Origin: Kocuria salsicia
GTDB lineage: Bacteria > Actinomycetota > Actinomycetes > Actinomycetales > Micrococcaceae
Reading direction: 5' to 3'
Length of the DNA stretch: 50,618 bases
NCBI RefSeq assembly: GCF_007681555.1
Contig: NZ_VELE01000012.1
Location: 1 to 50,618 of the forward strand
Below, piece after piece: positions 1-16,695 of this stretch. The notes beneath the pieces were generated by a model. It saw nothing but the letters and a program-made list of their open reading frames with translations, was not told the origin of the DNA and did no database searches. Positions within the stretch are counted from its first letter, which is position 1, and each line of letters begins with the position of its first letter. Made by a program: the position numbers and the translations under genes.

Positions 1-485
1 GGCTAGGCGCTGACGCGCCTGCTCGGAGCGGCCCCTGGCGGGGCCTTGCGCGCTGTCGCGCGCTGCGCCGCTGACGCGGCGAGCGGGTGCGCGGCTGGGC
101 CCCACGGGTGAGGGCACCTGTCGTAGAGGGCACAGACGGGCCTAAGAGGGCCCGGGTCAAGCCCGCAGGCCACTCACCCACCCCAGCAACCCCCAACCCC
201 GCACAACCGCACACACCACCCCGGGGCACCCCCCCGGGGGCAGGCGGGCCGGGCCGGGGGCACCCCCGGGGGCGGGGGGCCGGTGCCCCGGGCGGGGGCC
301 CCGGGGGGCACCCCCGGGGGCGGGTGAGGGGCCCACGACACCGGGCCACCCGCCCGCGAGCACTTTTCAGGGGCCAATAACCCCAAAAACCCCCGTAACC
401 CCCCGCTACTACCGCGCAAAATCGGGATTCTCCGGCGCCCTCCATAACCCCTAAAACCCCCACAACCCCGCGCGGTGGCTGCGGC
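1..485. other. GC-rich non-coding left end with repeats
   Basis: No convincing gene. Positions 220-330 are almost pure G+C and contain several near-copies of a palindromic block of the form GGGGCACCCCCGGGGGC, which could fold into strong hairpins. Positions 379-469 hold six AACCCC(C) repeats. Open frames in this stretch are on both strands and have no ribosome site, so they are taken as GC artefacts. The block could be a terminator/hairpin array or part of an origin or partition region; nothing decides between these. Confidence 0.5.
379..469. repeat. AACCCC repeat cluster A
   Basis: Six copies of AACCCC(C) lie at about 379, 388, 397, 446, 455 and 464, mostly spaced by 9 bp, so the phase is regular. 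Similar clusters occur at 42500-42568, 43864-43975 and just upstream of parA at 48553-48657. The regular 9-bp spacing suggests protein-binding sites; a role as partition (parS-like) or operator sites is inference. Confidence 0.5.
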
Positions 486-541
486 TTGACCCTGTACATC
501 CGTTCTGTATTGTTGTTTTTGTTACCGGGGCAGACGGCCCC
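486..541 (+). promoter_or_regulatory. Shared promoter-leader unit, copy 1
   Basis: The -35 is TTGACC (486-491) and the extended -10 is TGTATTGT (TATTGT at 508-513) after a 16-bp spacer. The T-rich stretch TGTTTTTGTTA follows, then a leader hairpin GGGGC-AGACG-GCCCC at 527-541. This is the first of seven matching units in the first 6.5 kb. Confidence 0.75.
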
Positions 542-564
542 TCCACCCGACCATGGAGGTCACG

Positions 565-1179
565 ATGTTCCCTACTGATGTGCGGTTCGCGGATTCCACG
601 ATGACGGTCGTGGACACCCCAGGGGTGCGCGCGGCGCTGCTCCCCCTGTGCCAGCGCGGCGAGCGGTTCCCTGAGGCCACGATGGTGGAGCGGATGATCC
701 AGAGTCACGGCTTCACGGTGGAGGTCTTGCAGGGCGGCATGTACCACCTGGGGCCCGCTACTGAGCGGCCCACCGAAGAGCAGCTGGGGTCGATGCGCCG
801 CCTACTGACCATGCTGGCCCCGCACCTTCCCAGTCAGGGCCTGGACGATCACGCCCCGCGGATGGAGTGGCAGGCAGTGGCCGATGACGGCTACCGGCAC
901 ACCTGGCGGGTGGTCGCCGGTGTGTTCTGCGAGTCCTCCGAGCCGGTGACGGGCCCGGATGAGTACGGGTACGAGTACAACGTGCGCTACACCACCGTGC
1001 GCCGCGAGCGCCTGTATCTGAGCCGCAGGCAGGCACAAGACCTGATGCCCGATCCGCTGGACCCGAGCGCCGAAGACCTGGAGCGGGCGCGGCGAGTGGT
1101 CAACGCCTGGGACGACGACGAGGTGAGCGCGGAGACCGCCGAGGTGGAACCGGAGTCGGTCAGCCTGAAAACGTCCTGA
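565..1179 (+). CDS. Plasmid protein of unknown function (paralogue of next gene)
   Basis: A 204-residue acidic, soluble protein with no domain I recognise. I start it at the ATG at 565 because GGAGG (555-559) precedes it with the same five-base spacing used by the sibling genes; an upstream ATG at 553 overlaps that ribosome site. Its N-terminal motif ADSTMTVVDTPGVRAAL matches EESTLTVADTPAVRQVL in the following gene, and both then run through a hydrophobic LAPH segment, so the two are diverged duplicates. It is driven by promoter-leader copy 1 and followed by a strong hairpin terminator, so it is probably a single-gene transcript. Function unknown. Confidence 0.75.
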   Translation: MFPTDVRFADSTMTVVDTPGVRAALLPLCQRGERFPEATMVERMIQSHGFTVEVLQGGMYHLGPATERPTEEQLGSMRRLLTMLAPHLPSQGLDDHAPRMEWQAVADDGYRHTWRVVAGVFCESSEPVTGPDEYGYEYNVRYTTVRRERLYLSRRQAQDLMPDPLDPSAEDLERARRVVNAWDDDEVSAETAEVEPESVSLKTS

Positions 1180-1203
1180 GCGCCCGTCTGAGCGCCTATC
1201 GCA

Positions 1204-1233
1204 CCCCCAGTGCCCCCATGGGGGCACTGGGGG
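1204..1233 (+). terminator. Perfect palindromic terminator-like hairpin
   Basis: A 30-nt perfect palindrome centred on CCATGG (arms CCCCCAGTGCCCCCA and its complement) lies 24 bp after the first gene. The next gene starts 50 bp later, so it may terminate or attenuate rather than fully isolate it. Confidence 0.65.
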
Positions 1234-1282
1234 CTATTCGAGGGGCACACGGCCCCACCTGAGACCGTAAGGAGCTTTCCCT

Positions 1283-1906
1283 ATGTGTGAGGATCCCCGC
1301 GTGGAGGAGTCCACGCTGACCGTGGCCGATACCCCCGCCGTGCGCCAGGTGTTGGCCCGGTGGCTGGCCCACCCGGATGACGTGGCCCCGGAGGTGTACG
1401 TGGCCCGTGGACTCGCGGCGGCGGGCTACGAGGCCACGCCCTACGCGCCGGGGGTGTACGCCGTGACCCCGCGTTTCTGTCAGCCCGATGGGTACATGTT
1501 CGGCCAGTTGTGGCAGGTGTTCCGGGAATTGGCCCCGCACGTGGTGGCCACCGGTGCCAGTGGGCAGCCCCCGCATATCCAGTGGCGCTACTGCGATTGC
1601 GGGGAAGCGTTCCGCTGGGTGGTGTTGGACGGGGCGGGCCATAGCTGGGACCCGTCACCGGATGGCACGTTCGTCTACCCCTACCCGCGCGTGTACGAGT
1701 TCGAGGTGGTGACCACCGAGCGCACCCGGGAGACCGTGGAGGTGGACAGTGCCACGGCGGCGGAGTTGTTCGCCGATCCCCAGCGGCCCACCCGCGCGGA
1801 GTTGCACCGCGCGCGGGTGGACGCGGATTGCCGCGTGCACACCACCAGCGTGGGCCAGGAGGTGACTTTGATGCTGGAGAACCTGACCGTTGACCCCGTG
1901 CGGTAG
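1283..1906 (+). CDS. Plasmid protein of unknown function (paralogue of previous gene)
   Basis: A 207-residue protein starting at ATG 1283 behind a GTAAGGAGC ribosome site. It shares the N-terminal block (E/D)STLTVADTP and the central ELAPH block with the upstream gene, so the pair looks like an old tandem duplication. It has three aromatic-rich beta-type stretches (for example FVYPYPRVYEFEVV) and no membrane segment. It is the only gene in the early run without its own copy of the shared promoter, so it probably depends on read-through past the palindrome at 1204-1233 or on an unrecognised promoter. Function unknown. Confidence 0.75.
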   Translation: MCEDPRVEESTLTVADTPAVRQVLARWLAHPDDVAPEVYVARGLAAAGYEATPYAPGVYAVTPRFCQPDGYMFGQLWQVFRELAPHVVATGASGQPPHIQWRYCDCGEAFRWVVLDGAGHSWDPSPDGTFVYPYPRVYEFEVVTTERTRETVEVDSATAAELFADPQRPTRAELHRARVDADCRVHTTSVGQEVTLMLENLTVDPVR

Positions 1907-1922
1907 GCACCGCCCACCGCGA

Positions 1923-1969
1923 GCGCCCCGGTGTGTTTGGCCTAGTCACAGGCCGATTCGCCGGGGCGC
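1923..1969 (+). terminator. Nested inverted repeat, terminator-like
   Basis: Outer arms GCGCCCCGG (1923-1931) and CCGGGGCGC (1961-1969) enclose a second inner repeat, GGCC...GGCC. It follows the second gene directly, and its left arm overlaps one copy of the ACCGCGAGCGCC repeat (1916-1927). Confidence 0.55.
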
Positions 1970-1993
1970 CGGCATGTTCGCCGGCCCCAGGGG

Positions 1994-2050
1994 TTGCGCC
2001 TGTTTTGTTTGATATGTATTGTTGTTTTTGTCAGCGGGGCACAGGGCCCC
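1994..2050 (+). promoter_or_regulatory. Shared promoter-leader unit, copy 2
   Basis: The -35 is TTGCGC (1994-1999), followed by a 17-bp spacer, TATTGT (2017-2022), a T-rich run, and a leader hairpin GGGGC-ACAGG-GCCCC (2036-2050). The loop differs from copy 1 but the stem is identical. Confidence 0.8.
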
Positions 2051-2076
2051 GGACGCACGACCCAAGGAGGGTTCCC

Positions 2077-2784
2077 ATGAACACCACCATCTACTCCATC
2101 GCCTGCACGCAGCTACACTCCCTGATGGCGGGCCTCAAGCTGGCCACCGCCAAGGCGAACGCCAACCTGCCGGTACTGGAGGAGGTCCAGCTCACCGTGG
2201 ACGGCGAGCGCGTCACGGGTGTGGCCACCGACCGCTACCGGCTGTTCATGGACTCCCGCGAGGTGGCCCTGGAGCAGTCCCCCGAGGAGGGGGAGGCCGC
2301 GACCGTGTTCACGCTCCCGGCCAGCGCCGCCGATGACTTCAAGCGCCTGGGCTTCTCCAAGTCGCACGAGCGGGCACGGGTGGAGGTGAGCGCCGAGGAG
2401 GTGGTGGTCTCCACCGCCGCCGCGCGACTGTCCTACCCGGCCATGGACGCGGAGTACCCCCGCGTGGGCGCGCTGATGGTCAAGGCCCTGGGCGCGGTGG
2501 CCGAGGGCAAGGCCGTGGAGGTTTCCACGCAGTACAACGTGGACTACCTGGGCGACTTCGCCAAGGTGCGCCGGGCGGCGGGGATCCCCACCAACACCCC
2601 GTTGCGGATGCACCAGATCCCCGCCGGGTCCGGGAGCTTCCAGCTGATCGCCACGTTCCCGGGCACGGACTTCTGGGCCCTGCTGATGGGGGTGCGCCAC
2701 CCCGAGGGGGACGCCAACCACTCCAGCGCCGTGGAGGCCCTGGAGCGGGCGACTGAGACCGCTAAGGCCCTGGCCTCCGCCTGA
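2077..2784 (+). CDS. DNA polymerase sliding-clamp (DnaN-like) protein
   Basis: A 235-residue protein starting at ATG 2077 behind AAGGAGGGTTCCC. Residues about 28-60 (LPVLEEVQLTVDG, then VATDRYRLF) match the hallmark block of the bacterial beta clamp, where LPVL, a two-strand turn and ATDR(Y/F)RL form one clamp domain. The rest keeps a clamp-like alternation of short strands. Chromosomal DnaN is about 370 residues with three such domains, so this is a short, plasmid-borne two-domain version. It could load on plasmid DNA, assist the family B polymerase encoded at 45612, or act as a decoy that binds clamp partners. The clamp assignment rests on this motif only; the role is inference. Confidence 0.65.
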   Translation: MNTTIYSIACTQLHSLMAGLKLATAKANANLPVLEEVQLTVDGERVTGVATDRYRLFMDSREVALEQSPEEGEAATVFTLPASAADDFKRLGFSKSHERARVEVSAEEVVVSTAAARLSYPAMDAEYPRVGALMVKALGAVAEGKAVEVSTQYNVDYLGDFAKVRRAAGIPTNTPLRMHQIPAGSGSFQLIATFPGTDFWALLMGVRHPEGDANHSSAVEALERATETAKALASA

Positions 2785-2789
2785 TCCCC

Positions 2790-2823
2790 CACGGGGGGCG
2801 GGCCCCGCGCCCGCTCCCCCGTG
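2790..2823 (+). terminator. Terminator-like hairpin
   Basis: Imperfect arms CACGGGGGGCGGG and CGCCCGCTCCCCCGTG begin just after the clamp-like gene. No U-tract follows, as is common for hairpin terminators in high-GC actinobacteria. Confidence 0.5.
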
Positions 2824-2954
2824 GCCAGCACATCGCCGCCCCGGGTGGGCCCGCTACCGACGGGCCCGCCCGGGGCGGCTCACTGCCAGGAAAAGCGGGA
2901 AAGGGACGCATATCGGCGCGACCGGGCACGGGCCCACCGCACGCACCGAGGGCC

Positions 2955-2991
2955 ACCGCGAGCGCCCCGGGCCCGCTGGGGCGCTCGCGGT
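2955..2991. repeat. Perfect hairpin built from the 12-bp repeat
   Basis: Two opposed repeat copies, extended to 14 bp (ACCGCGAGCGCCCC and GGGGCGCTCGCGGT), flank a 9-nt centre. They would form a 14-bp perfect stem just upstream of promoter-leader copy 3. Confidence 0.7.
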
Positions 2992-2998
2992 CCCCATG

Positions 2999-3055
2999 TT
3001 GCACCCGTTCAAACCGTAGTGTATTGTTGTTTTTGTTAGCGGGGCAGACGGCCCC
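2999..3055 (+). promoter_or_regulatory. Shared promoter-leader unit, copy 3
   Basis: The -35 is TTGCAC (2999-3004), followed by a 17-bp spacer, TATTGT (3022-3027), and a hairpin GGGGC-AGACG-GCCCC (3041-3055). From 3020 to the start codon it is identical to copy 4 at 3590. Confidence 0.85.
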
Positions 3056-3081
3056 GGATCCCTAGACCCCAGGAGGGCACC

Positions 3082-3456
3082 ATGACCACGACGACCACCA
3101 CCAAGACCGGCCTGTTCATCCCTGCCGACCCCGACACCGCCCACGAGGTGCGCGAGCTCGACGCCTCCCGGCTGCTGAACGCCCTGCAAACGACCGTGGG
3201 CGGCTATGTGGAGGTGGTGACCCTGACCCGGCTGGGCGCGGACATGTACCTCAACGAGGAAGGCAAGGTGATGAGCCTGCCCGTCAACGAGCGAGCCACC
3301 TGGGTGGCCCGCGCCCTGGGCGCGCACCTGATCCCGGGAGACTGCATCGCCGGGGACGTGCTGATCCTGGGCGGACCCGACGAGGACGGCGACAACCAGG
3401 GGCTGACCCCCCTGCAAGTCCAGGAAATCAAAATCGCGCTGACCTACCAGCGCTAA
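3082..3456 (+). CDS. DUF3846-like protein
   Basis: A 124-residue protein at ATG 3082 behind CAGGAGGGCACC. After a threonine-rich lead, residues about 20-85 follow the DUF3846 pattern: a leucine-rich helix, VGGYVEVVTL, LNEEGKVMSLPVNE, and later IAGDVLILGG. DUF3846 proteins are common on phages, plasmids and other mobile elements; their biochemical role is not established to my knowledge. The gene has its own promoter-leader unit, and its downstream spacer carries three copies of the 12-bp repeat. The family assignment is from recall of the motif, with good agreement. Confidence 0.75.
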   Translation: MTTTTTTKTGLFIPADPDTAHEVRELDASRLLNALQTTVGGYVEVVTLTRLGADMYLNEEGKVMSLPVNERATWVARALGAHLIPGDCIAGDVLILGGPDEDGDNQGLTPLQVQEIKIALTYQR

Positions 3457-3568
3457 CCCCCGCGCGTGCCGCCGGGTCCACCCCGGCCCCGGCGGCGCTC
3501 GCAGTCCACCTGGGCCACCCACCGCGAGCGCGGACACCCCGGCCCCAGCGGCGCTCGCAGTCCCTATA

Positions 3569-3625
3569 TTGCACGCGCTTAGTTGATAGTGTATTGTTGT
3601 TTTTGTTAGCGGGGCAGACGGCCCC
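3569..3625 (+). promoter_or_regulatory. Shared promoter-leader unit, copy 4
   Basis: The -35 is TTGCAC (3569-3574), followed by a 17-bp spacer, TATTGT (3592-3597), and a hairpin GGGGC-AGACG-GCCCC (3611-3625). About 65 bp up to the ATG duplicate copy 3 exactly, which indicates a recent duplication or gene conversion of the leader. Confidence 0.85.
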
Positions 3626-3651
3626 GGATCCCTAGACCCCAGGAGGGCACC

Positions 3652-3933
3652 ATGGACACCACCACGCAGCGCGAGCAGCTGGCCCAGGTTCTGGCCACTC
3701 ACCGGACCCACCACACCGACAACGAGAGTTGGATCCTGACTAACTACGTGGAGCACTCCGGGAAGGAGTGGCCCGAGACGGTGGTGCTGCGCTACAGCGG
3801 CCCCGCGGGCCCCAACCAGCGGGCCGAGTTCCCCGGCCTCTCCCGCGAGACCGTGGCCGAGGCACTGCGGGAGGCCAACTACTTCCGCACCAACCTGGGA
3901 GGCTTCGACCTCTACGGCCCGCGCACCCTGTAA
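3652..3933 (+). CDS. Small plasmid protein of unknown function
   Basis: A 93-residue soluble protein from ATG 3652, using the same CAGGAGGGCACC ribosome site as the DUF3846 gene. It has an N-terminal helix rich in Q, H and T and then a predicted beta segment (ETVVLRYSGP) followed by a helix (SRETVAEALREANYF). No family recognised. Its size and its own shared promoter fit the other members of this co-regulated set. Confidence 0.7.
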   Translation: MDTTTQREQLAQVLATHRTHHTDNESWILTNYVEHSGKEWPETVVLRYSGPAGPNQRAEFPGLSRETVAEALREANYFRTNLGGFDLYGPRTL

Positions 3934-4428
3934 CCCCACCCCCGCCCCCCGCGCCGGGAGGGGGCGGGAGCCCGCGCGCCCGGGAGGCAACAGCGCGGCG
4001 CGCGCGGACAGCTCACCAATGGCCCGCCCGTGATCCACCCGCACCCCGAGACCGGCGGCGCTCGCGGTGAGCACCCCGCGCACACTCCCCACGCTCCGGC
4101 GCGGGGCCCCAGCAGCGCCAGACAGCGCCCCGCGCCCTGCCAGGCCGCCAGGGACCGCGCGGACACCCCCGGGGACTCCACGCGGGCGCTCCCCCACCAC
4201 AGGCAGGCACGGCCACGGGCGGCACACGCCGGGGACTACCACCGCGAGCGCCCGCCGGGGGCGCGCGCTTCCCCGCCCCGCCGTTGAGCCCGCGCGCCCG
4301 CGTGCGGCGAGCGCGGTCACCCCAGGCACGGCCCGCGCGTGATCCACCCGACCCCGAGACCTCCGGCGCTCGCAGTACCCCCGTGTGTGCGTGGCCTGGG
4401 GGTGATCACGGATGATGCTGAGCCGGAC
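3934..4428. other. Non-coding spacer with 12-bp repeats
   Basis: About 495 bp without a gene. It holds three copies of the GGCGCTCGC(G/A)GT family (4057, 4241, 4365) and a longer repeat in which GTGATCCACCCG plus CCCCGAGACC precede the 12-mer at 4029-4068 and again at 4339-4376. Open frames exist on both strands but lack ribosome sites and protein-like composition. Confidence 0.55.
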
Positions 4429-4485
4429 TTGCACGCGTTTTACTTTGTGTGTATTGTTGTTTTTGTTAGCGGGGCACACGGCCCC
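4429..4485 (+). promoter_or_regulatory. Shared promoter-leader unit, copy 5
   Basis: The -35 is TTGCAC (4429-4434), followed by a 17-bp spacer, TATTGT (4452-4457), and a hairpin GGGGC-ACACG-GCCCC (4471-4485). Confidence 0.85.
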
Positions 4486-4512
4486 GGACACCGACTCCCC
4501 AGGAGGAACACC

Positions 4513-5190
4513 ATGGCCCAGCGCACCCAGCTTTTCATCACCGCCGAGACTGACCCCACAGCGTTCGGCGGGCCCCGCCGCCACCGGATCGGCCGTCACC
4601 ACCACTGGCGCTACGGCCCGAACATGGTGATCTGCGCCGCGCAGGTGGTGGAGCACCTGGAGGCCGTGACCGCTGGCCACTACTACCGGCCCACCTCCGA
4701 GGTGGCCGAGGGCGTGGCCGCCGTCTACGGGGTGAACCGTGCGACCGCCGAGGCCTCCGGGGTCAGCCTCTACGACGACGTTTCCACCGCCGCCGCCACC
4801 GAGTGCGACAACAACAACGGCACGTTCCTGGTGAACCTCACCCCCGAGGGCTACACGTTCGGGTTCCTGATCGGGCCCAGCGAGAACGGCGACCTGACCA
4901 CCGTGACCGGGGTGGACGGACTGATGGAAGCATTCGGGGCCTGCTGGTCCCCGATGCCCTACGACATGGAGCGCCAAGAACGGGAATGGGCCGTGACCGT
5001 CTCCCAGGCCGTGGAGACCCTGCGCGCCGCTGAGACCGCCGGGCACCTGATGGACCAGGACACCGCCGAGCGGGTCACCGCCGTGGAAGTGCCCAGGGTG
5101 AAGACCGAGACGGTGTGGGACACCATCCCGCGCGTGATGCCCGACGCGGCCCCCGCCGTGGGCACCCGGGTGCAGGTCATCCGGGCCTGA
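4513..5190 (+). CDS. Plasmid protein of unknown function
   Basis: A 225-residue protein from ATG 4513 behind CAGGAGGAACACC. It begins with a short strand (TQLFITAE), then a His/Arg-rich patch (residues about 22-33), a Trp-Arg-Tyr-Gly block and a helix with VVEHLEAV. A central NNGTFLVNLTPEGYTFGFLIG segment looks like a beta hairpin. It has no signal peptide or membrane segment. It is the longest member of the shared-promoter set after the clamp-like gene. I do not recognise the family. Confidence 0.75.
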   Translation: MAQRTQLFITAETDPTAFGGPRRHRIGRHHHWRYGPNMVICAAQVVEHLEAVTAGHYYRPTSEVAEGVAAVYGVNRATAEASGVSLYDDVSTAAATECDNNNGTFLVNLTPEGYTFGFLIGPSENGDLTTVTGVDGLMEAFGACWSPMPYDMERQEREWAVTVSQAVETLRAAETAGHLMDQDTAERVTAVEVPRVKTETVWDTIPRVMPDAAPAVGTRVQVIRA

Positions 5191-5201
5191 CCGGCCCACC
5201 C

Positions 5202-5241
5202 CCTCCCCGGGCCCATGAGGGCCCTCACGGGCCCGGGGAGG
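5202..5241 (+). terminator. Perfect 13-bp stem terminator
   Basis: Arms CCTCCCCGGGCCC (5202-5214) and GGGCCCGGGGAGG (5229-5241) are perfect complements, and the loop can itself pair through GAGGG/CCCTC. It begins 12 bp after the preceding stop codon. Confidence 0.75.
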
Positions 5242-5506
5242 CCCCCACAGGGGCACCGGCAGGCCCCCGCGAGCACCCCACCCCAGCACCCCACACACCC
5301 CCGTGCGCCCCGCACGCGCGGGGCGTGGGCGCTCGCGGTGAGTAGCCCCCCGCAGCGCCGACGGGCACCCCGCCACCGTGACCGGCCCGGGCCCCGGTGA
5401 GCGGGCACCGCCCCGGCGCTCGCAGTGCGCAGGCGCGGCACCGTGGGGATCGAGGGGCCACCGGGCCCGGTCACGCGCCGGGCTGTGCCCCGCCCATGTA
5501 GCCGAC

Positions 5507-5563
5507 TTGCACACCTTTAATCTGTACTGTATTGTTGTTTTTGTTAGCGGGGCATGAGGCCCC
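5507..5563 (+). promoter_or_regulatory. Shared promoter-leader unit, copy 6
   Basis: The -35 is TTGCAC (5507-5512), followed by a 17-bp spacer, TATTGT (5530-5535), and a hairpin GGGGC-ATGAG-GCCCC (5549-5563). The downstream ribosome site is a weaker TAGAGGAGC. Confidence 0.85.
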
Positions 5564-5590
5564 ATTGGCAACTACATAGAGGAGCACACC

Positions 5591-5842
5591 ATGGAACGAA
5601 CGTTCCGCGAGTACGACGGCAACTTGAATCTCAGTGTGAGCGAGATCGGGAAGATGCACCTGGGGGCACTCAACGAGGTGTACGACAACTGCCGCGTGAT
5701 CCTGCGCACGCACATGAACATGTTCAACAGGAACGGCGCCCCCAGCCCCGAGGAGGTCCGGGACGCCCGGCAGACGATCGACAGGATCTCCGCCCGACTG
5801 AAGGACTTCGGAGAGGCGGGGATCCGCCCCACCTGGGTCTAG
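5591..5842 (+). CDS. Small helical plasmid protein of unknown function
   Basis: An 83-residue, mostly helical, charged protein from ATG 5591. Its base composition is less GC-skewed than its neighbours (AAC, AAG and ATC codons at the start). Two long helices (about 18-45 and 55-75) are predicted around NMFNRNGAPSPEE. A 13-bp perfect terminator stem follows within 10 bp, so it is a single-gene transcript from promoter copy 6. No family recognised. Confidence 0.7.
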   Translation: MERTFREYDGNLNLSVSEIGKMHLGALNEVYDNCRVILRTHMNMFNRNGAPSPEEVRDARQTIDRISARLKDFGEAGIRPTWV

Positions 5843-5849
5843 GACCCAC

Positions 5850-5879
5850 GAGGGCCCCGGGTCACCACCCGGGGCCCTC
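5850..5879 (+). terminator. Perfect 13-bp stem terminator
   Basis: GAGGGCCCCGGGT (5850-5862) and ACCCGGGGCCCTC (5867-5879) pair perfectly around a CACC tetraloop. Confidence 0.8.
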
Positions 5880-5958
5880 GCTTGTGGGGCGGCGAGTCCG
5901 GTTTCCCACCGGCACTCCCGGTGACCAGGAGACCGGCGGCGCTCGCGGTCCGGGCATC

Positions 5959-6444
5959 GTGGCGTCCACCGCAAGGTGGATGCGCGCCCACGGTGTGACC
6001 CGCCAGGCCGTGGCGGGCATCGTGGCCGAGCCCCAGCACACCCGCCCGGGCTACCGCGGGGCCACCATCTACGCCGGGGCCTCCCTGGAGGTGGTGGTGG
6101 CCGAGGACGGGGCCACCGTGCTCGCCGTCTACCCCCGCACCCCGCAGCCCGCACCCGCCTGTGACCCGCCGCGAGCGCCAGCACGGCCCGCACGGCGGGG
6201 GCGCACGGCCCGTCCGGCGCGCACGATCCCCAGCGGGCGCCGGGAGTTCCTGCGACTGCTCACCGACCACGGGTTCCAGATCACCACCGACACCAGCCGC
6301 CACCGGCGGGTGACCCACCCCGATCACCCCGGGGCCGTGGTGGTCATCCCCTCCTCCCCCAGTGATCACCGGAGGGCGCTGAACACCGTCTCCCAGATCC
6401 GCCGCACGTTCGGCATCGACCTGCGCCACGCCCCCCGCGACTGA
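5959..6444 (+). CDS. DUF4258-HicA-like fusion protein
   Basis: About 161 residues from GTG 5959 (a later ATG at 5980 would cut into the first domain). Residues 1-62 fit DUF4258: a leading helix RWMRAHGVTRQAV, then TIYAG and a strand pair ending in VLAVYPR. After an Arg/Pro/Ala-rich linker, residues about 95-160 fit the HicA fold: EFLRLLTDHGFQI, HRRVTHP (the HicA catalytic-histidine position) and VVVIPSSPSDHR. Both families are small RNA-binding or RNase-like folds linked to toxin-antitoxin systems, so this may be an RNase-type toxin or a regulator derived from one. A 12-bp repeat copy overlaps the start region. No HicB antitoxin is adjacent. It lacks the shared promoter. Confidence 0.6.
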   Translation: MASTARWMRAHGVTRQAVAGIVAEPQHTRPGYRGATIYAGASLEVVVAEDGATVLAVYPRTPQPAPACDPPRAPARPARRGRTARPARTIPSGRREFLRLLTDHGFQITTDTSRHRRVTHPDHPGAVVVIPSSPSDHRRALNTVSQIRRTFGIDLRHAPRD

Positions 6445-6457
6445 TCCGGCCCGCCGG

Positions 6458-6513
6458 TAGACAGAATAATAATTGTTGTGTATTGTTGTACTTGTTAGCG
6501 GGGCACAGGCCCC
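6458..6513 (+). promoter_or_regulatory. Shared promoter-leader unit, copy 7
   Basis: The -35 is TAGACA (6458-6463), followed by a 17-bp spacer, TATTGT (6481-6486), and a hairpin GGGGC-ACAG-GCCCC (6500-6513) with a four-base loop. This is the most diverged copy: TTGTACTTG replaces TTGTTTTTG. Confidence 0.75.
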
Positions 6514-6540
6514 ATACCCCGAGCGAGAGGACACGACACC

Positions 6541-6672
6541 ATGAGCCAGAAAATCCACGAAGAGATCACCGACGGCCCCACCATCGCCACCCGCACCGGC
6601 GTGATCATCGCCCAGACCCGCCGCATCACCCTCACCACCGAAGAAGACGACAACACCGCAACCACCGACTAA
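6541..6672 (+). CDS. 43-residue small protein
   Basis: ATG 6541 opens a 43-codon frame, rich in Thr, Ile and acidic residues at the C terminus (TTEEDDNTATTD). The ribosome site is GAGCGAGAGGACACGACACC, weaker than in the siblings. Its support is positional: it lies at the same distance behind promoter-leader copy 7 as the other genes do behind theirs. It directly follows the DUF4258-HicA gene, so an antitoxin role is conceivable but unsupported by sequence. Confidence 0.55.
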   Translation: MSQKIHEEITDGPTIATRTGVIIAQTRRITLTTEEDDNTATTD

Positions 6673-6971
6673 CCCACCACCCAGTGGGGGACTGCCAAGA
6701 CCCAGCAGCCCCCCCACCGGGGGCCGCGCCCCCGGCGACTGAGCCACCACCCCCAGGGCGCCGGCGCCGGTGACCTACGGCAGCACCCCCGGCCACGAGA
6801 CGCCATCGGCGCTCGCGGTCGGGGGTGCGGTCTGTCGTGCTGGGGTCAGTCGGTGGTCTGTGAGCTCCCGGCGCTCGAACCCCTCCCAGCTGCTCACCCC
6901 GGCGGCGGCGAACAGGATCTTGCGCGCGGATTTGTCACGAAAATTGTGTAGGGGACACATACTCTAGGCCC

Positions 6972-7751
6972 ATGTGTCGATCCGTAGCCGATGGTGGGCG
7001 CCGGTGCTCCGACGCCCGGCGCCTGGCCAAACTCACCGCTCACGACCTCGCGCCCCACACCCCCGGGGCTCCTGACCTCGAGTGGGCCGAATCGGATCTC
7101 ACCGAAGTCTGGGAGAACCACCCCCAGGAAACGGCCTGTGCCGCCGTAAAGACGATCGAGGAAGCCTCCGCCGCGGATGCGCGCACCTTCACCGACATGG
7201 ACACCGCAGCCCAAGCAGCCGGCGGACACCTGTACGGCACCGCCTTCCGCCTCAAATCCCCCGCGTCTCTGGCGCGGAAGATCAACACCAAGCAGGAACG
7301 CGCGGAACGCACCGGCACACACCTCGCCGCCGAGGACGCGGCGGCGACCATCACCGACACCACCCGCTACACCGCAGTGTGCGAGGACCACGACCAGATC
7401 ACCGTCACCACTGTGACCACCGTCCAGACCTTGCGCGCCAACGGCTGGGACGTGATCGAGGCCGAACAGTCCTACCTCGAGGGCAACTCCTACAAGGGCG
7501 TGCACCTACTCGTGCAGCACGCAGACGACCAGATCGCAGAACTGCAGATCCACTCCGAGACCTCCCAGCAGATCAAAGACCAGTCCCACCTGCTCTACGA
7601 AGTCTCCCGCGACACCTCGCGCTCGCGAGCGGAGCGCCTGGCCGCTAACCGGGAGGGCAAGGAGCTCTACCGACAGTTGCAGGCCCCTGCGAACTTGGAC
7701 ACCTTGAGCGATCGGCTGGGTGTTACTGTCAGCAAAAAGCGTTATAGTTAG
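6972..7751 (+). CDS. RelA/SpoT-fold (alarmone-synthetase-like) protein
   Basis: 259 residues from ATG 6972. Residues 1-12 (MCRSVADGGRRC) form a Cys/Arg lead common in actinobacterial mobile-element proteins. The C-terminal half shows the RelA/SpoT nucleotidyltransferase pattern in order: RLKSPASLARKI (93-104, the R-K-S loop), TDTTRY (128-133, the D-x-x-R position), YKGVHLLV (174-181, the Y-G-H loop) and AELQIHS (189-195, the catalytic Glu strand), followed by DQSHLLYEVSR. It has no HD hydrolase and no regulatory TGS or ACT domain. Its size and isolation resemble small alarmone synthetases and the toxic variants found on mobile DNA. A second gene starts 20 bp downstream, so a toxin-partner pair is possible. 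Confidence 0.65.
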   Translation: MCRSVADGGRRCSDARRLAKLTAHDLAPHTPGAPDLEWAESDLTEVWENHPQETACAAVKTIEEASAADARTFTDMDTAAQAAGGHLYGTAFRLKSPASLARKINTKQERAERTGTHLAAEDAAATITDTTRYTAVCEDHDQITVTTVTTVQTLRANGWDVIEAEQSYLEGNSYKGVHLLVQHADDQIAELQIHSETSQQIKDQSHLLYEVSRDTSRSRAERLAANREGKELYRQLQAPANLDTLSDRLGVTVSKKRYS

Positions 7752-7771
7752 TTTCTATTAAAGGAAAGTAG

Positions 7772-8344
7772 ATGGTTTCGATGATCACGTTCTATCGGGC
7801 ACACTTCCCGGGCCAGCCTCCCGAGACCGCCGTGATCGTTGCCGATGACTCCGAGGCAGAGGTTCTGTGGGAGTGGGTGCCCAACACAGGTCTGTGGCAT
7901 CGGGCTACGCAGCTGGAGAACGACTTTCTCTTCGGCGATGAGGGCGGCACCTACACCCCGATCACCGCAGAAGAGGCAGCGGGGTTGCTCGAGCGCGTGC
8001 CGCGGCTGGACAAGCGCCGGGACGTGGCAGCCCGAATGCTCCAGCGCTACGAGGCGCAGCCCCCGACAGAGAAGCGGACCAATGCGGAGATGGGGTTGAC
8101 CAACAAACTCACCGGCCTACGCCCGATGACCGCCCCCGGCCTGGGCCAGCTGATGACCCAGGCGCGCCGGCACCGATCCTGGCGCACCCTTGCTCTCTAC
8201 GGACCGGGCACGGGCAGCGCTGCCCGCCAATTCATATCCCAGTGGGATCAGCGCCCCCTCTCCCCACAGGAGCCCCCACTGGAATTGAGGGCTACTGCGC
8301 GGGGGGAGAACACAGCCGTGCAAGCCCGGTTTGTCAGCAAATAA
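7772..8344 (+). CDS. Unknown protein paired with the RelA/SpoT-fold gene
   Basis: 190 residues from ATG 7772 (an alternative ATG lies at 7781) behind AAAGGAAAG in a notably AT-rich 20-bp gap after the upstream gene, so the two are probably cotranscribed. The N-terminal third is rich in Trp and acidic residues (VLWEWVPNTGLWHRA), and the middle is helical with ERVPRLDKRRDVAARMLQRYE. No family recognised. By position it could neutralise or regulate the RelA/SpoT-fold protein. An IS3-family element lies about 50 bp downstream; the stop codon is intact. Confidence 0.65.
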   Translation: MVSMITFYRAHFPGQPPETAVIVADDSEAEVLWEWVPNTGLWHRATQLENDFLFGDEGGTYTPITAEEAAGLLERVPRLDKRRDVAARMLQRYEAQPPTEKRTNAEMGLTNKLTGLRPMTAPGLGQLMTQARRHRSWRTLALYGPGTGSAARQFISQWDQRPLSPQEPPLELRATARGENTAVQARFVSK

Positions 8345-9632: not shown

Positions 9633-9898
9633 GCCCAGCTACACCAAGGTGCAGGTGAAGCAGTACTACTACGCCGAGGACAAGTACGGGAATTCTCACG
9701 AGCACGGCAGTGACTACTACCAGTACAGCTTCAACCACCACGGCGGTGAAACCTGGGGCGGGGGGGCAGTGGCGCCACTTCAATCACCACCAGGACAAGA
9801 AGGTGTACCACGTGGTCAAGTACCGCTACTGGGACGGTCACGGCTGGTCGGACTGGTACAAGGACGTGAGCCACAAGACCGGCCTCGGGCACTGATCG
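9633..9898 (+). pseudogene. 3' remnant of a Tyr/His-rich protein gene, frameshifted
   Basis: Right after the IS, one frame reads YTKVQVKQYYYAEDKYG and on to NHHGGETWGG. At a run of seven G (9760-9766) the reading must move frame to continue WRHFNHHQDKKVYHVVKYRY...GHGWSDWYKDVSHKTGLGH before a stop at 9896. The two halves share composition (Tyr, His, Lys, Trp), so this is one gene with a homopolymer indel and a 5' end lost at the IS. Function unknown; it may be a secreted wall or surface protein. Confidence 0.6.
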
Positions 9899-10241
9899 CG
9901 CTTTGGTGGGGGCCATCCAGCTTGTGGCTGGCCCTCACCCACATAACATCGGTGAGGGCCCCATCCGCACGCTGTCGTGGCTGGTGACAGCACCCCGCAG
10001 CATTGCTCTTGCACCACTGGATGCAATTCTTGGGCAGCAGAACCGTGGCCTCCAGGTCCTCGACGGGGGCTCCCGAAGTGCCGGGTATCGATGAACACTC
10101 CTCACTTGTCGCCCATCACAAAGTCATTTCTGGGTGGGGCAGTGATCGGGCCGAACCAGAAACCCCAGATCGGACGGGATCTGCTCCCCGGGATCACGGA
10201 CCAGAAGGTCCGCGGGGGCGCTGTCATGAGAGGGTTGCAGC
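9899..10241. other. Intergenic stretch with one hairpin
   Basis: 343 bp without a supported gene. The only clear element is the hairpin at 9930-9960, described separately. Confidence 0.5.
9930..9960. terminator. Terminator-like hairpin
   Basis: Perfect 10-bp arms GGCCCTCACC and GGTGAGGGCC are separated by 11 nt, downstream of the broken gene. Confidence 0.6.
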
Positions 10242-10790
10242 ATGTCCCATCCTGCGTCCCCCGGCGTCTGCCCACCCGATGAGTCCCGCAGCGCCCAGGG
10301 ATCCTCCCCGGCCGAACCTGGGGCCGAAAACCTTCCCGCGAAGGCCGCCCCTGGGGCGGTCCTGTACGAGGAACGGTTGTCGGCCGCGTGGTGGATGTGG
10401 TTGCTCGTGCTCTTCGCGGGCCTGGTGGGTTTCATTGCCCTGGCCCCGATCAACATGTGGGCCGGGACGGCCGTCGGGGCCGTGGTCGCCGGCGGCACTG
10501 CGGTGGCGTTGATTGTTTCGAGCACCGGGATCGTGATCACCGGGGAGTCGTTGCAGGTGGGGCGGGCCCGTATCGAGCGTCGGTTTGTGGGCGAGGCCGA
10601 AGCGTTTCGCGGCGGCGCCGTGCAACGGGTGCGGGGCCCCGAGCTTGACGCCCGCGCCTACATGAACTTCCGCGTCTCCGTGGGCCCGGTGGTCCGCATC
10701 CAGATCACCGATCCCGTGGATCCCACCCCTTATTGGTTGACCTCGACCCGTCACCCGGAGCGCATCGTCGAGATCCTCTCCGCCGGCTGA
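10242..10790 (+). CDS. DUF3093-family membrane protein
   Basis: 182 residues from ATG 10242, with a weak ribosome site. A Pro/Ala-rich cytoplasmic lead of about 40 residues is followed by YEERLSAAWWMWLLVLFAG, the DUF3093 entry motif, then two closely spaced membrane segments (about 48-66 and 72-92) and a soluble C-terminal domain ending in a TSTRHPERIVEIL block. DUF3093 proteins are widespread, usually chromosomal, actinobacterial proteins of unknown function. Its presence here suggests this part was captured from a chromosome. Confidence 0.75.
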   Translation: MSHPASPGVCPPDESRSAQGSSPAEPGAENLPAKAAPGAVLYEERLSAAWWMWLLVLFAGLVGFIALAPINMWAGTAVGAVVAGGTAVALIVSSTGIVITGESLQVGRARIERRFVGEAEAFRGGAVQRVRGPELDARAYMNFRVSVGPVVRIQITDPVDPTPYWLTSTRHPERIVEILSAG

Positions 10791-10829
10791 GACCGGCGTC
10801 CTGTGAGGGGCTCGTCCGGTGACCAGCTC

Positions 10830-11525
10830 TCAGAGGCTCCGGAGAGTATTGAGGATGGTGATGGGTGTCACCCAGATGGCCTCGGCTTCCACCGGGGCCA
10901 GATCGATCGCGGTGTGCTGGTTCCCCGGTACACCGGTGGTTCCGCTGGCTCCCTGGGCGATGACACGAAAAGGCCCGCCCGGCACGAGGCCGCAGGCGCG
11001 GAACCGGGTCAGGAGTTGCGGGTCGGCATCAGAGAGACGAACGATCTCGTATCGTCCCGGCCTCGCCCTGGTGAGCCGGGTGGTGTTGAGTGGGCGGCGG
11101 GTGCGTCCCTGCGCGGTGGGGATCGGGTCCCCGTGCGGATCGGCCGTAGGCTGTCCCAGCTGGGCGTCGATGCGCTCGATCATCGCGTCGGAGACGGCGT
11201 GCTCGAGACGTTCGGCCTCGTCGTGGACCTCCTCCCACGGATACCCCAGGGTGGTGACGAGGAAGGTCTCCAGCAGTCGGTGCCGGCGCACCATCGCGAC
11301 CGCGTACGCGCGCCCCTGCGGGGTGAGGGTGACGGGTTTGTAGGGCTGGTACTCGACGAGCCCCTGGGCGGCCAGTCGCTTGACGGTGTCGGTGACGTTG
11401 GGGGCGGAGGTCCCCATCCGCGCCGCCAGGGCTGTGGTGGTGATCGGCGGGTCGCCCCATTCGGTGGCCGACCAGATCGCCTTGAGATAGTCCTGGGCGA
11501 CCGGGGTGATCTCACTCAAGTCCAT
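10830..11525 (-). CDS. mntR: MntR/DtxR-family manganese-dependent repressor
   Basis: 231 residues from ATG 11525. Residues about 1-65 form the DtxR winged helix (TTTALAARMGTSAPNVTDTVKRLAAQGLVEY), about 70-140 the metal-binding and dimerisation domain (MVRRHRLLETFLVTTLGYPWEEVHDEAERLEHAVSDAMIERI, with the usual H, E and C/M ligand region), and the C terminus an SH3/FeoA-like domain. Length and layout match IdeR/MntR. It lies 44 bp downstream of mntH on the same strand, so it probably forms an mntH-mntR unit controlled from the operator at 12852-12875. Confidence 0.85.
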   Translation of the reverse strand: MDLSEITPVAQDYLKAIWSATEWGDPPITTTALAARMGTSAPNVTDTVKRLAAQGLVEYQPYKPVTLTPQGRAYAVAMVRRHRLLETFLVTTLGYPWEEVHDEAERLEHAVSDAMIERIDAQLGQPTADPHGDPIPTAQGRTRRPLNTTRLTRARPGRYEIVRLSDADPQLLTRFRACGLVPGGPFRVIAQGASGTTGVPGNQHTAIDLAPVEAEAIWVTPITILNTLRSL

Positions 11526-11569
11526 GGGATCCACGCTACCGAGTGCCGCGCCGGAGCTGCCGGGCCCAC

Positions 11570-12850
11570 TCAATCGGCCCCGGTGGCGGTCAGGATGATC
11601 AGCGCCAGATTCAACGACACGATCAGGGCCACGACCACCCAGGCGGCGACAGTCAAGGCCACCTTGTTCACGAAGGCGCCCATCAGATCCCGGTTGCTGC
11701 TCAGTCGCACCAACGGGATCAGGGCGAAAGGGATGCCCAGGCTCAGCAGCACCTGGGACAGCACCAGCGCCCAGGTCGGGTCCACCCCGACGGCGATGAT
11801 GACCAGGGCCGGGATCAGGGTGATCAGCCGGCGGGTGAACACCGGGATGCGCACGTGCAGCAACCCGCCCATGATCGCTGATCCGGCGTAGGAGCCCACC
11901 GAGGTCGAGGCCAGACCGGAGGCCAGCAACCCGATGCCGAAGGCGACCCCGACGGCCGGGCCCAGGGCGGCGGTGATCGCCGCATGGGCTCCTTCGATGC
12001 TGTCGGTGCCGGGCACCCCGGCGAGATTGCCCGCGGCCAAAAGCAGCATCGCGATGTTCACCGACCCGGCCACGAGCAGGGACAGCAGCACGTCCCACCG
12101 GGTGGCGGTCAGCAGCCGCGGCAGGGCCTCGGCGGGCACCGAGTGCCCGTGGCGGTCCCGCGCCAGGGCGGAGTGGGCGTAGATGGCGTGGGGCATCACC
12201 GTGGCCCCGAGCATGCTCGCGGCCAGCAGGACCGTCGGGGTGCCCTCGAACCGTGGGACGATCCCGGCGACGGCCTCGTCCCACGACACGGGGCCGAAGA
12301 ACAGGCCGGTGACGAAACCGGCGGTGACGATCGCCAGTAGGCCGGTCACGACGAACTCGAAAAACCGAGGGCCCCGGCGGGTCTGCAGGACCAGCAGCAG
12401 CATCGAGATCACCCCGACGATCACGCCCCCGGCCAGCAGCGGGATCCCGAAGAGGATGTGCAGGGCGATCGCCCCGCCGATTACCTCGGCCAGGTCAGTG
12501 GCCGCGGCCACCAGCTCGGCCTGGACCCAGTAGGCCAGCCGCCAGCCCCGGGGCAATCGGTCGCCCAGCAACTCGGGCAGGCTCGATCCGGTGACCAGCC
12601 CGACCTTCGCCGAGAGGTACTGGATGAGTACCGCCATGGCATTGGCGGCCACCAGCACTCACACCAACAGGTACCCGTACTGGGCGCCGGCGGTGAGGTT
12701 CGCCGCGACGTTGCCCGGGTCCACGTAGGCGACCGCGGCCACGAAGGCTGGACCCAACAACCAGGGCAGCGGTTGGCGGCGCACCCACCGCTCTCCTGGG
12801 GAAGTGGCGGCAACACCTGTTGAGCCGGTGCGCCCGGTCCCGGTCCTCAT
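11570..12850 (-). pseudogene. mntH: mntH (Nramp Mn2+ transporter) with in-frame TGA
   Basis: Reads as a 427-codon Nramp proton-coupled divalent-metal transporter from ATG 12850. It has the TM1 metal motif [12 protein letters not shown], the TM6 MPHAIYAHS motif, and about 11 membrane segments. At 12659-12661 a TGA stands where the family has Trp (LLVWVLV becomes LLV-stop-VLV), and the frame is otherwise perfectly open on both sides. The result is a 63-residue fragment plus a 362-codon remainder that could restart at GTG 12658 but would lack the TM1 metal site. A single TGG-to-TGA change, a sequencing error, or stop-codon read-through would each explain it. Confidence 0.85.
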
Positions 12851-12851
12851 A

Positions 12852-12875
12852 GAAAGTTAAGCTATACGAACTTTC
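12852..12875 (-). promoter_or_regulatory. Probable MntR operator
   Basis: Inverted repeat GAAAGTT-N10-AACTTTC directly abuts the mntH ATG, with an AT-rich centre (AAGCTATACG). Position, symmetry and the linked mntR gene support autoregulation by manganese; the exact consensus was not checked. Confidence 0.6.
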
Positions 12876-13041
12876 CGGCGCGGGGAATGGGGGCCCGGCC
12901 TCGAGGGCTTGGTCATGCCCCCAAACGTGCGCGCGCAGGAGGGGCTGGGCGCCTCGACAGCCGATCACAGGGGCATGGAACTCCGGACGGTGCTGGTCTC
13001 CTGGGGTGGGGGAACTGTCGGCCAGTGGTGGGGTCCTGGGT

Positions 13042-13683
13042 TCAGGGGGTCAGCTCGCCCAGGGGTGCGGGGCGGAGTCGGCCGAGACCGGGCATGAACC
13101 GGCCGACATGAGCGGCGTAGGAGGCGTAGGCCTGTCGGTGGGTGCTCAGCAGGTAGGGCTCTTCGACGAGACGGACCTGCAGCTCCACGGCCACCAGCAA
13201 GCACAGCCACGCCGCTGCAGTGACCACGGTGGGCACCAGGAGGGTCAGGCCGGCCAGGGTGGTGAGCATCGCGGTGAAAATCGGGTTGCGGACCACGGCG
13301 AAAGCCCCGGTGGTGACCAGCTCGGTGCGTTCGGTGGCGTCGACACCCACCCGCCAGGAGGCGCCCATGCCGGCCTGGGCGGCTAGTACACCGAGGAAAC
13401 CCACCACGGTGACGACCGCCCCGGCCCAGGACAGTGCTTGCGGGAGCCGGGGTGCGGCCACGGTGCCGGTGAGGGCCAGGACGGGCCCGGCCGCACCGAG
13501 AACCAGGGCGGCCGCGAACAGGATCCCGCCCCACCACTCGGGCGAGCCGGGCGCCCCGCTCACCCCGCGGAAGCCGCTGGAGCCGGTGCGGCGCCGGTGG
13601 ATCCACGACCGCACACCGAAGGCGGTCACCAGGCCGGCCAGGTACAGGCCCAGCGCCAGAGCCGGGGCCACTTCCGACATCAT
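13042..13683 (-). CDS. Isoprenylcysteine carboxyl methyltransferase-family membrane protein
   Basis: 213 residues from the first of two tandem ATGs at 13683, behind GAGGAGGACC. Four to five membrane segments are visible. The C-terminal half has the ICMT/PEMT signature: GASWRVGVD, ELVTTGAFAVVRNPIF (the RNP turn that binds S-adenosylmethionine), then EEPYLLSTHRQAYASYAAHVGRFMPG. Bacterial members of this family methylate unknown lipids or small substrates and often sit beside metal-resistance genes. It is divergent from the CmtR-like gene at 13799 and shares its promoter region. Confidence 0.8.
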   Translation of the reverse strand: MMSEVAPALALGLYLAGLVTAFGVRSWIHRRRTGSSGFRGVSGAPGSPEWWGGILFAAALVLGAAGPVLALTGTVAAPRLPQALSWAGAVVTVVGFLGVLAAQAGMGASWRVGVDATERTELVTTGAFAVVRNPIFTAMLTTLAGLTLLVPTVVTAAAWLCLLVAVELQVRLVEEPYLLSTHRQAYASYAAHVGRFMPGLGRLRPAPLGELTP

Positions 13684-13770
13684 CACGGTCCTCCTCGATC
13701 CGGCAAACGCAGCACGCCCCGGGTGACCCGCTGGTGCGCCCGAGGAGTGCCAGCAGGCCACCCCTCAACA

Positions 13771-13788
13771 GTACACAGAAACCTGTAC
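13771..13788 (+). promoter_or_regulatory. Operator of first CmtR-like gene
   Basis: The 18-bp inverted repeat GTACACAGAAACCTGTAC ends 10 bp before the start codon at 13799. The block CTGTACCGTA recurs as CTGTACGGTT at 16681, 15-16 bp before the start of the second CmtR-like gene. The short distance implies a leaderless or near-leaderless transcript. Confidence 0.6.
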
Positions 13789-13798
13789 CGTAGGGGGG

Positions 13799-14826: not shown

Positions 14827-14881
14827 GCACGGTCGGCACGCGTCGGCGCCCCGAGACGAGGACGCCGGGGCGCACGGCTTC

Positions 14882-15563: not shown

Positions 15564-15580
15564 AAGGGAGGAACTCCACC

Positions 15581-16240: not shown

Positions 16241-16314
16241 GTCTCGCCGATGTGGTGAAGGCCGGCCGGTGGGCTCATCCGTCAGGTGCGGAGTGCCCCG
16301 CCAGGATCATCGTC

Positions 16315-16359
16315 GATGGACCGCATGGGTGCACTCGGATGGACCGCATGGGTGCACTC
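16315..16359. repeat. 22-bp tandem direct repeat
   Basis: Two identical 22-bp units separated by one base. No function seen. Confidence 0.7.
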
Positions 16360-16685: not shown

Positions 16686-16695
16686 CGGTTATTGG

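Follow-up and report, generated by a model that had tools for sequence, protein, structure and literature searches.

The left end of a 50,618-base stretch of Kocuria salsicia DNA, which is the entire contig C3 of a draft genome and is called the window below, carries a set of small genes that begin with one common leader. Between 486 and 6543 there are seven such leaders, each made of a promoter, a T-rich start, a GGGGC hairpin and a ribosome site, all on the plus strand and directed away from the left end. We find that the leader is conserved on plasmids of two genera, Kocuria and Micrococcus, that its copies lie near plasmid ends and mostly face inward, and that its stem covaries in Micrococcus. 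The pattern is real, is broader than the window alone shows and matches nothing in Rfam. Based on these sequence comparisons, we propose that the leaders mark a subtelomeric plasmid regulon, probably for establishment after transfer, in which a 5'-proximal mRNA hairpin would protect or mark the transcripts, and we rate the chances of this proposal as even.

Pattern searches with shuffle controls recovered the seven leaders. Allowing up to 3 mismatches, GTATTGTTGTTTTTGTTAGCGGGGC matches the window seven times, always on the plus strand (507, 2016, 3021, 3591, 4451, 5529, 6480), and 100 shuffles give no match; a similar pattern searched over the whole assembly returns the same seven sites and no others. 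An initial annotation of this DNA had described these leaders, and both its outline of them and its tally of loops (AGACG three times, ACAGG, ACACG, ATGAG and ACAG) proved correct. Two of its details held only in part. The -35 element, given as TTGCAC in all seven, is found in the exact arrangement TTGCAC-N15..18-TGTATTGT in four, but the other three have TTGACC, TTGCGC or TAGACA at about the same spacing; AGGAGG, claimed after every hairpin, stands in four of the seven, but the rest have GGAGG, GAGGAG or GAGAGG. In addition to the hairpins of the seven leaders (527, 2036, 3041, 3611, 4471, 5549 and 6500), we find an eighth at 1242-1256, overlooked in that annotation, that has no promoter. Because the loose GGGGC-loop-GCCCC pattern already has 3.7 expected matches in the window (11 are observed, a number reached in 0 of 100 shuffles), the complete leader is a stronger signal than its hairpin by itself. 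The leaders at 3020 and 3590, identical across 65 bases, are a recent duplication. Rfam 15 covariance models gave no match at E<=1 in window positions 1-8000. An intrinsic terminator was rejected as an identity for the hairpins, which by eye are followed by GGAnC/GACCC-like or GCACCCC-like sequence and no U run.

Other plasmids carry the same leader. The leader pattern is present in 2 of 27 Kocuria genomes, one of them that of the window, and its exact form in one stretch of a genome contig collection (a Kocuria sp. cx-455 record); CP124834.1 of K. rhizophila, a linear record of 65.5 kb with many broken genes, carries it too. A model built from 23 Kocuria copies (R1) and run over 245 genomes of the family (E<=0.001) finds 7 copies in the window genome, 16 in G018, which belongs to the same genus, and 2 in G091, a probable Micrococcus draft genome with one protein 98.5% identical to a pLMA7 protein; the other 242 genomes have none. 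The Micrococcus records with the leader are pLMV7, pLMA7, pCW.Ay, CP043850.1, pSGAir0127 and pJD12. A second model (R2), for which only Micrococcus-type copies were used (31 of them), finds all seven window leaders (E 3.6e-10 to 3.9e-5), and therefore the Kocuria and Micrococcus sets are very probably homologous by sequence. The initial annotation had staked its proposal on conservation of the hairpin in homologous plasmids, which is what we observe, and a multi-gene plasmid set behind one leader is supported as well.

Searches of whole records (E<=0.01) give 80 matches on the six Micrococcus plasmid records (pLMV7 31, pLMA7 11, pCW.Ay 14, CP043850 14, pSGAir0127 7, pJD12 3), 9 on CP124834 and 12 in G091; the copies of pLMA7, pCW.Ay, pSGAir0127 and G091 are not independent, since many near-identical ones are held in common. 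With stricter filters, under which weak copies may be lost, R2 matches 19 of 395 Micrococcaceae genomes and 10 of 396 Micrococcales genomes. Multiple copies in the Micrococcaceae scan are confined to the window genome, G018 and G091; a further genome, G105, has one match at 5.2e-6 and one at 0.006. Fifteen single R2 matches were inspected and set aside: four from Kocuria resemble an arginine-regulator box, and the others have no clear leader and were treated as chance without proof. The four Kocuria genomes in question (L062, L063, L064, L066) have one R2 match each, at a conserved promoter marked by TGTATAGTCATGCA and by a palindrome of GGCGCC type, and the gene behind it (MTERVVLAY) is presumably argG. 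There were no leader matches in the right part of Clavibacter pCSL1, and three exact leader patterns had none in a viral contig collection. A phage origin was rejected on the lack of viral contig matches, and window 486-6800 is likewise without a match in a phage collection.

The copies cluster at plasmid ends. We placed 102 copies on 8 plasmids, leaving out the window and two pLMV7 matches with E above 1e-4 and using separate lists for CP124834 (8) and G018 (16). Ninety are directed inward. Under a uniform spread 24.1 copies would be expected no farther than 10 kb from an end and 60.2 no farther than 25 kb; we count 85 and 101. The distances are minima because some records lack the very telomere, as is the case for pLMA1 and pLMA7 (PMC5823993). 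CP043850 is annotated as circular. The window itself begins with plasmid-type terminal sequence: its left end aligns to the left and right ends of G018:C9 with local scores of 84 and 66, and 50 base shuffles against the left end reach at most 16.5. G018:C9 is a 68,903-bp contig whose two ends match each other as inverted repeats. As for mobility, pJD12 has annotated conjugation-type genes, and pLMA1 and pLMA7 are described as probably conjugative (PMC5823993).

The initial annotation had argued from a fixed stem and a free loop to selection on RNA structure. On the window's own data this argument is invalid, since a protein operator could equally well take the form of an unchanging inverted repeat around a free spacer and the Kocuria stems lack covariation; its term "covarying loop" was for the same copies a misnomer. 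The conclusion itself is favored by the Micrococcus copies, whose stems vary (GGGGGC-GCCCCC, GGGATC-GATCCC, GGGGTC-GACCCC, GGGCTC-GAGCCC, GGGTGG-CCACCC, GGGGTTC-GAACCCC). Of 84 listed matches, 46 were inspected; 8 of the 18-base type and 4 duplicates were set aside, which left 34 distinct hairpins of the 17-base type for the analysis. In these 34, 94.8% of cells are paired against 79.0% in shuffles, 31 cells are changed on both sides against 7.8, mostly in two inner pairs, and the covariation score is 0.370 against 0.083, none of 500 shuffles being as high on any of the three measures; versions with the stem slid out of register score at most 0.129. For instance, pLMV7 alone has 11 different inner 5-bp stems (G-U variants counted) among 23 hairpins, of which 19 share the promoter core TGTA..CATGTC. 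Such a variety of stems beside a constant core makes an RNA stem likelier than a DNA operator for a single protein.

Across the wider set, stems of at least 5 pairs are formed by 76 of 86 leaders (shuffle mean 16.9, maximum 26), a count biased upward because some Micrococcus leaders were chosen with a hairpin filter. Among the 70 distinct leaders with such a stem, 59 have a loop whose first base is A and whose last is G; the DUF4192-type leaders closest to the ends contain a stem mismatch. The sequence 3' of the stem is also conserved in Micrococcus, as CACCCC. Searching 11 Micrococcus loci for a stem plus N-GC-A/C-CCC gives 57 places against 5 in reversed sequences, and 50 of the 57 have a promoter. 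Among the seven promoterless places, four look like chance, two are second hairpins in long CP043850 leaders, and one, L053 9355 on the minus strand (GACGGC-ATGAG-GCCGTC, then GCACCCC, AAGGAG and ATG), precedes a second gene as the window hairpin at 1242 does. In the long leaders (L080:2317-2429 and L080:551-663) the additional hairpin is of GGGCCC type and has CACCCC after it.

The promoters have the consensus TTGCRC, about 17 bases, TATWGT, which points to the housekeeping type. Transcription should begin about 7 bases downstream of a TATWGT -10, which would place the start 4-7 bases 5' of the stem and make the leader about 47-52 nucleotides long. Conservation extends from the -10 to this presumed start (TGTATtGTT....TGTtAgC in Kocuria, CATGTA..CATGTC in pLMV7), and Micrococcus has an inverted repeat across the -10 (CATGTA..TACATG or GTGTA..ACAC) whose sequence tracks plasmid type. 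Based on this conservation, the stretch is likely a common control site. A lead only, by analogy with p576 (below), is that a two-gene helix-turn-helix operon on four Micrococcus plasmids encodes an autoregulated repressor: upstream of it we find a clear leader match on CP043850 (L080:13877-13959, 32.2 bits), a marginal one on pLMA7 (15.2 bits, E 0.083), and on the other two a likeness by eye with no match at E<=0.1. A helix-turn-helix operon at window 36683-37470 was rejected as a Kocuria regulator, its upstream repeat being different.

For the proposed establishment regulon we arrive at a conditional scheme. Each small gene would have its own housekeeping-type promoter, in a regulon adjoining linear plasmid ends, and the conserved stretch from -10 to start would act as joint control. 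Some 4-7 nucleotides from its 5' end, the message would fold into a short GC-rich hairpin; a linker, C-rich in Micrococcus, would come next and then the ribosome site. The hairpin would act in the RNA, most likely by shielding the 5' end, so that the short transcripts last longer and decay uniformly, or else by offering an RNA-binding protein a place to bind; a strand-specific stem at the 5' end fits either role. The set would be turned on jointly, most likely in a burst when the plasmid reaches a new cell, protecting and establishing it there, and the Micrococcus -10 repeat would suit a repressor absent from a naive recipient. We infer the action in RNA, the joint switch-on, and with them the trigger, the regulator and the role of the hairpin. 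Early expression after entry is plausible given the place and direction of the leaders and the analogy with known systems; the establishment reading is drawn from placement, type of cargo and the likeness to two published cases (PMC8708921, PMC11541004). In a bolder form, hairpin and linker would be a new class of cis-acting RNA module that defines an arrival programme of actinobacterial linear plasmids, in which a single promoter-leader design drives a common set of small genes, mostly of unknown function, behind the telomere, a region equivalent to the leading region of other plasmids, and would also work without a promoter inside operons; this extension we consider doubtful.

Several observations weigh against the establishment regulon. 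The 5-bp stem hardly varies in Kocuria: in an alignment of 22 distinct rows, which excludes copies with a four-base loop and the poorest K. rhizophila copies, 98.2% of cells are paired and no pair is changed on both sides. In Micrococcus, the strictest measure, pairs with both-sided change, gives 4 against 2.6 (46 of 500 shuffles as high), and further pair types give 11 against 7.7 (9 of 500). The rows there were anchored on the GC 5' of the stem and sorted by pairing, kin rows inflate the cell counts, and the covariation tool itself warns that related sequences can score above shuffles. An automatic fold of a sequence-only alignment (A4) has three stem pairs, none changed on both sides, because plain alignment misplaces the stem arms, and puts covariation in the -10 repeat; covariation of that repeat follows plasmid type and may reflect descent. 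The repeat is not seen in the Kocuria leaders, for which we found no common regulator and no equivalent of the Micrococcus helix-turn-helix operon. Blocking the 5' arm leaves access to the ribosome site at 0.456 from 0.456 in Kocuria (29 leaders) and 0.483 from 0.488 in Micrococcus (54), with 83 of 86 leaders scored and three lacking a recognised ribosome site or start. Twelve of the 102 placed copies face outward, spread over six records; PLSDB types all 7 plasmid records as non-mobilizable, and no transfer genes turned up among the scanned open reading frames of the window. Lastly, we recognised no known anti-defence gene apart from a DNA methylase.

The strongest alternative, though in our view an unlikely one, is a portable cassette for strong expression, in which a promoter and a stabilising hairpin have been copied from gene to gene and are always on, with no coordinated switch. 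The identity of leaders 3 and 4, a promoter near the housekeeping consensus, the many unrelated families that carry it and the lack of a regulator in Kocuria all fit this explanation. It does not account for a conservation from -10 to start that exceeds usual promoter needs, for the Micrococcus inverted repeat or for the subtelomeric placement. Alternatively, an RNA-binding protein or small RNA acting in trans could recognise the hairpin and switch translation of the set on or off. The A and G at the loop edges, the conserved CACCCC, the promoterless hairpins (L053 9355 and window 1242) and the second hairpins with CACCCC in two CP043850 leaders speak for such recognition, but the loop interior and stem vary within one plasmid and would leave few specific contacts, there is no candidate protein, and folding shows no effect on pairing of the ribosome site; overall we hold it to be improbable. 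A switch that masks the ribosome site was rejected in its own right, accessibility being unchanged when the 5' arm is blocked.

Still less probable is that the GGGGC-GCCCC repeat is the DNA operator of a dimeric repressor just 3' of the transcription start. Its half sites are nearly invariant in Kocuria and its position would block initiation, but one repressor could hardly read the 11 stems of pLMV7, and the compensatory changes in Micrococcus, a spacer of 4 or 5 and the asymmetric A...G loop edges do not suit it. A single-stranded DNA promoter of Frpo type, active on incoming single strands, is very improbable: the leaders lie near plasmid ends with a hairpin adjoining the promoter, and some best folds pair part of the -35 (GCAC) with GTGT just 5' of the -10, but -35 and -10 are not both paired in single-strand folds of the seven window leaders (mean pairing probability 0.30-0.66 and 0.09-0.47, against 0.95-1.0 for the stem) and the folding energies of six stretches are unremarkable except for one (z -0.05 to -2.32).

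Returning to the proposed establishment regulon, we file the leader set among the repeated promoter-leader regulons of mobile elements. The establishment regulons of p576 and the pLS20 family in Bacillus (EGeRS2) combine a ribbon-helix-helix repressor and TTATCCC operators with transient expression after transfer (PMC8708921). There, on a conjugative plasmid, a similar strong promoter precedes each of several small establishment operons that are otherwise unrelated, and a figure legend gives longer RNA life as the most likely effect of two short inverted repeats in front of ardC; unlike p576, the leader hairpin here is shared and covarying and the plasmids are linear (PMC8708921). As on p576, many small genes with near-identical promoters sit here on one plasmid. 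In Cluster K mycobacteriophages, start-associated sequences (SAS) of 13 bp, GGGATAGGAGCCC, occupy the ribosome site, and the accompanying ESAS are imperfect 17-bp repeats (PMC3203893). They resemble our leaders as repeated elements of unknown function at the starts of an otherwise unrelated gene subset on an actinobacterial mobile element, and about half of them have an upstream inverted repeat, but the passages considered describe no covarying short hairpin (PMC3203893). By eye, GGGATAGGAGCCC is absent at the start codon from the aligned leaders.

Frpo leading-region anti-defence islands likewise hold many small unknown genes together with methyltransferases and are expected to enter first, but Frpo folds the promoter itself (PMC11541004), which the leaders here appear not to do; the main text of that report has no mention of "Linear", "Actinobacteria" or "Actinomycetota". 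The 5'-terminal stabilising stem-loops of the ompA type share a stem near the message 5' end, but are single-gene cases, while here one design spans dozens of genes, for which a stabilising role would be by analogy (PMC3997798). A literature search on Micrococcus linear plasmids with a subtelomeric promoter or hairpin leader found nothing relevant, and in the literature cited we found no description of a leading region for protein-capped linear plasmids. Wagenknecht 2010, which reportedly treats structural peculiarities of pLMA1 that disturb sequencing, may to judge by its title already mention hairpins, in which case priority for those on pLMA1 may belong there.

The covariance model provides a computable handle for possible early or establishment genes of linear plasmids, mostly of unknown protein function, and such genes may include new anti-defence proteins. 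Self-protection on entry by a plasmid with protein-capped ends also becomes testable, and the covarying stems amount to a series of natural mutants from which the role of a 5' hairpin in actinobacterial mRNA can be studied.

The genes behind the leaders are diverse. Taking in the window, G018, CP124834, pLMV7, pLMA7, pCW.Ay and G091, single-linkage clustering by BLAST (1e-5) sorts the 82 proteins encoded behind 86 leaders into 44 groups, of which 30 have one member, an overcount because frame-broken and diverged members split off (for example, the G018 DUF3846 protein stays single). The initial description of the genes as otherwise unrelated is thus broadly right, but clamp-like and DUF3846 proteins recur behind the leader in both Kocuria and Micrococcus. 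Other cargo includes DUF3560 and a C5 DNA methylase in G018 and DUF4192 in Micrococcus. The features of the window's left end are collected below; the open reading frame between leaders 6 and 7 is possibly the second gene of the leader 6 transcript.

Table. Leaders, genes and terminal sequence at the left end of the window (ORF, open reading frame; aa, amino acids).
Feature	Position	Strand	Details
Plasmid-type terminal sequence (contig left end)	1..231	.	homologous to terminal inverted repeat of linear plasmid G018:C9
Leader 1	486..567	+	-35 TTGACC, -10 TATTGT, hairpin 527-541 (loop AGACG), GGAGG, start codon 565; R2 match 485-567
Gene 1, 204 aa	565..1179	+	no Pfam or PHROG match; scanned as ORF 553-1179, start after ribosome site is 565
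Eighth hairpin, GGGGC-ACACG-GCCCC, GGGGCACACGGCCCC	1242-1256	+	no promoter; followed by GAGACC, AAGGAG and gene 2 start (1283)
Gene 2, 207 aa, paralogue of gene 1	1283..1906	+	BLASTP 28% over 177 columns, E 5e-17; no Pfam match above cut-off; no own promoter of leader type
Leader 2	1993..2079	+	-35 TTGCGC, -10 TATTGT, hairpin 2036-2050 (loop ACAGG), AAGGAGG; R2 46.7 bits
Sliding-clamp-like protein, 235 aa	2077..2784	+	Pfam DNA_pol3_beta_2, 6.7e-8
Leader 3	2998..3084	+	TTGCAC, TATTGT, hairpin 3041-3055 (AGACG), AGGAGG; R2 match
DUF3846 protein, 124 aa	3082..3456	+	Pfam 7.8e-20; family behind leader in both genera
Leader 4	3568..3654	+	TTGCAC, TATTGT, hairpin 3611-3625 (AGACG); same as leader 3 from -10 to ATG; R2 match
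93 aa protein	3652..3933	+	no Pfam or PHROG match; G018 homologue also behind leader
Leader 5	4428..4515	+	TTGCAC, TATTGT, hairpin 4471-4485 (ACACG), AGGAGG; R2 match
225 aa protein	4513..5190	+	no Pfam or PHROG match; 18 relatives among matches listed in large protein set
Leader 6	5506..5593	+	TTGCAC, TATTGT, hairpin 5549-5563 (ATGAG); R2 match
83 aa protein	5591..5842	+	no family match above cut-off (Pfam, PHROG)
ORF between leaders 6 and 7	5959..6444	+	HicA-like stretch PF07927, 1.2e-5, 25.8 bits against cut-off 27; phrog_2089, 1.1e-9
Leader 7	6457..6543	+	TAGACA, TATTGT, hairpin 6500-6513 (4-nt loop ACAG); R2 match
43 aa protein	6541..6672	+	no family match (Pfam, PHROG)

The predicted model of the window's clamp-like protein has a mean predicted local distance difference test score (pLDDT) of 67, and its best PDB match is a sliding clamp (E 6.2e-8, template modelling score 0.45); at 235 residues it compares with 343-377 for three-domain clamps. 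Short clamp-like proteins of about 230-260 residues, grouped by BLAST, are found on linear plasmids of both genera (window 2077-2784, L022:912-1607, L022:10859-11548, L053:21319-22074, L056:90-869), and an obvious guess, by analogy, is that they would form a trimeric ring in the fashion of PCNA. Forty-two relatives of the window protein are listed, the named short ones among them from Kocuria, and BLAST grouping places pLMV7 21251 and pCW.Ay 29 with the Kocuria clamps. Micrococcus proteins of about 220 residues are not claimed as clamps, since profile comparison gave a probability of 2.5%. A diverging family of about 190-230 residues, for which profile comparison does not support a relation to clamps, has no Pfam match, and many members end near W-x-x-G-x-W-A-H-G-R (L051:11934-15707, L053:16662-17991, L054, L055); several of its paralogues stand behind the leader on each Micrococcus plasmid.

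Elsewhere in the window, a perfect 30-base palindrome, CCCCCAGTGCCCCCATGGGGGCACTGGGGG, lies at 1204-1233 between genes 1 and 2, immediately 5' of the promoterless hairpin. Just inside the regulon, a protein with a RelA/SpoT-like domain (6972-7751) has no leader. An AT-rich stretch at 38840-38965, which contains ACAATACA and, on the opposite strand, TAGATAGTTGTC, is located 5' of a CAAX-protease-like gene and bears a faint likeness to the leader promoter, without a hairpin. Positions 9638-21640 hold a 12-kb metal-transporter block between IS3-type elements that is 99.7% identical to a Kocuria rosea plasmid, and 39985-42068 encode an S24 peptidase (UmuD-like) paired with a Y-family polymerase (UmuC-like).

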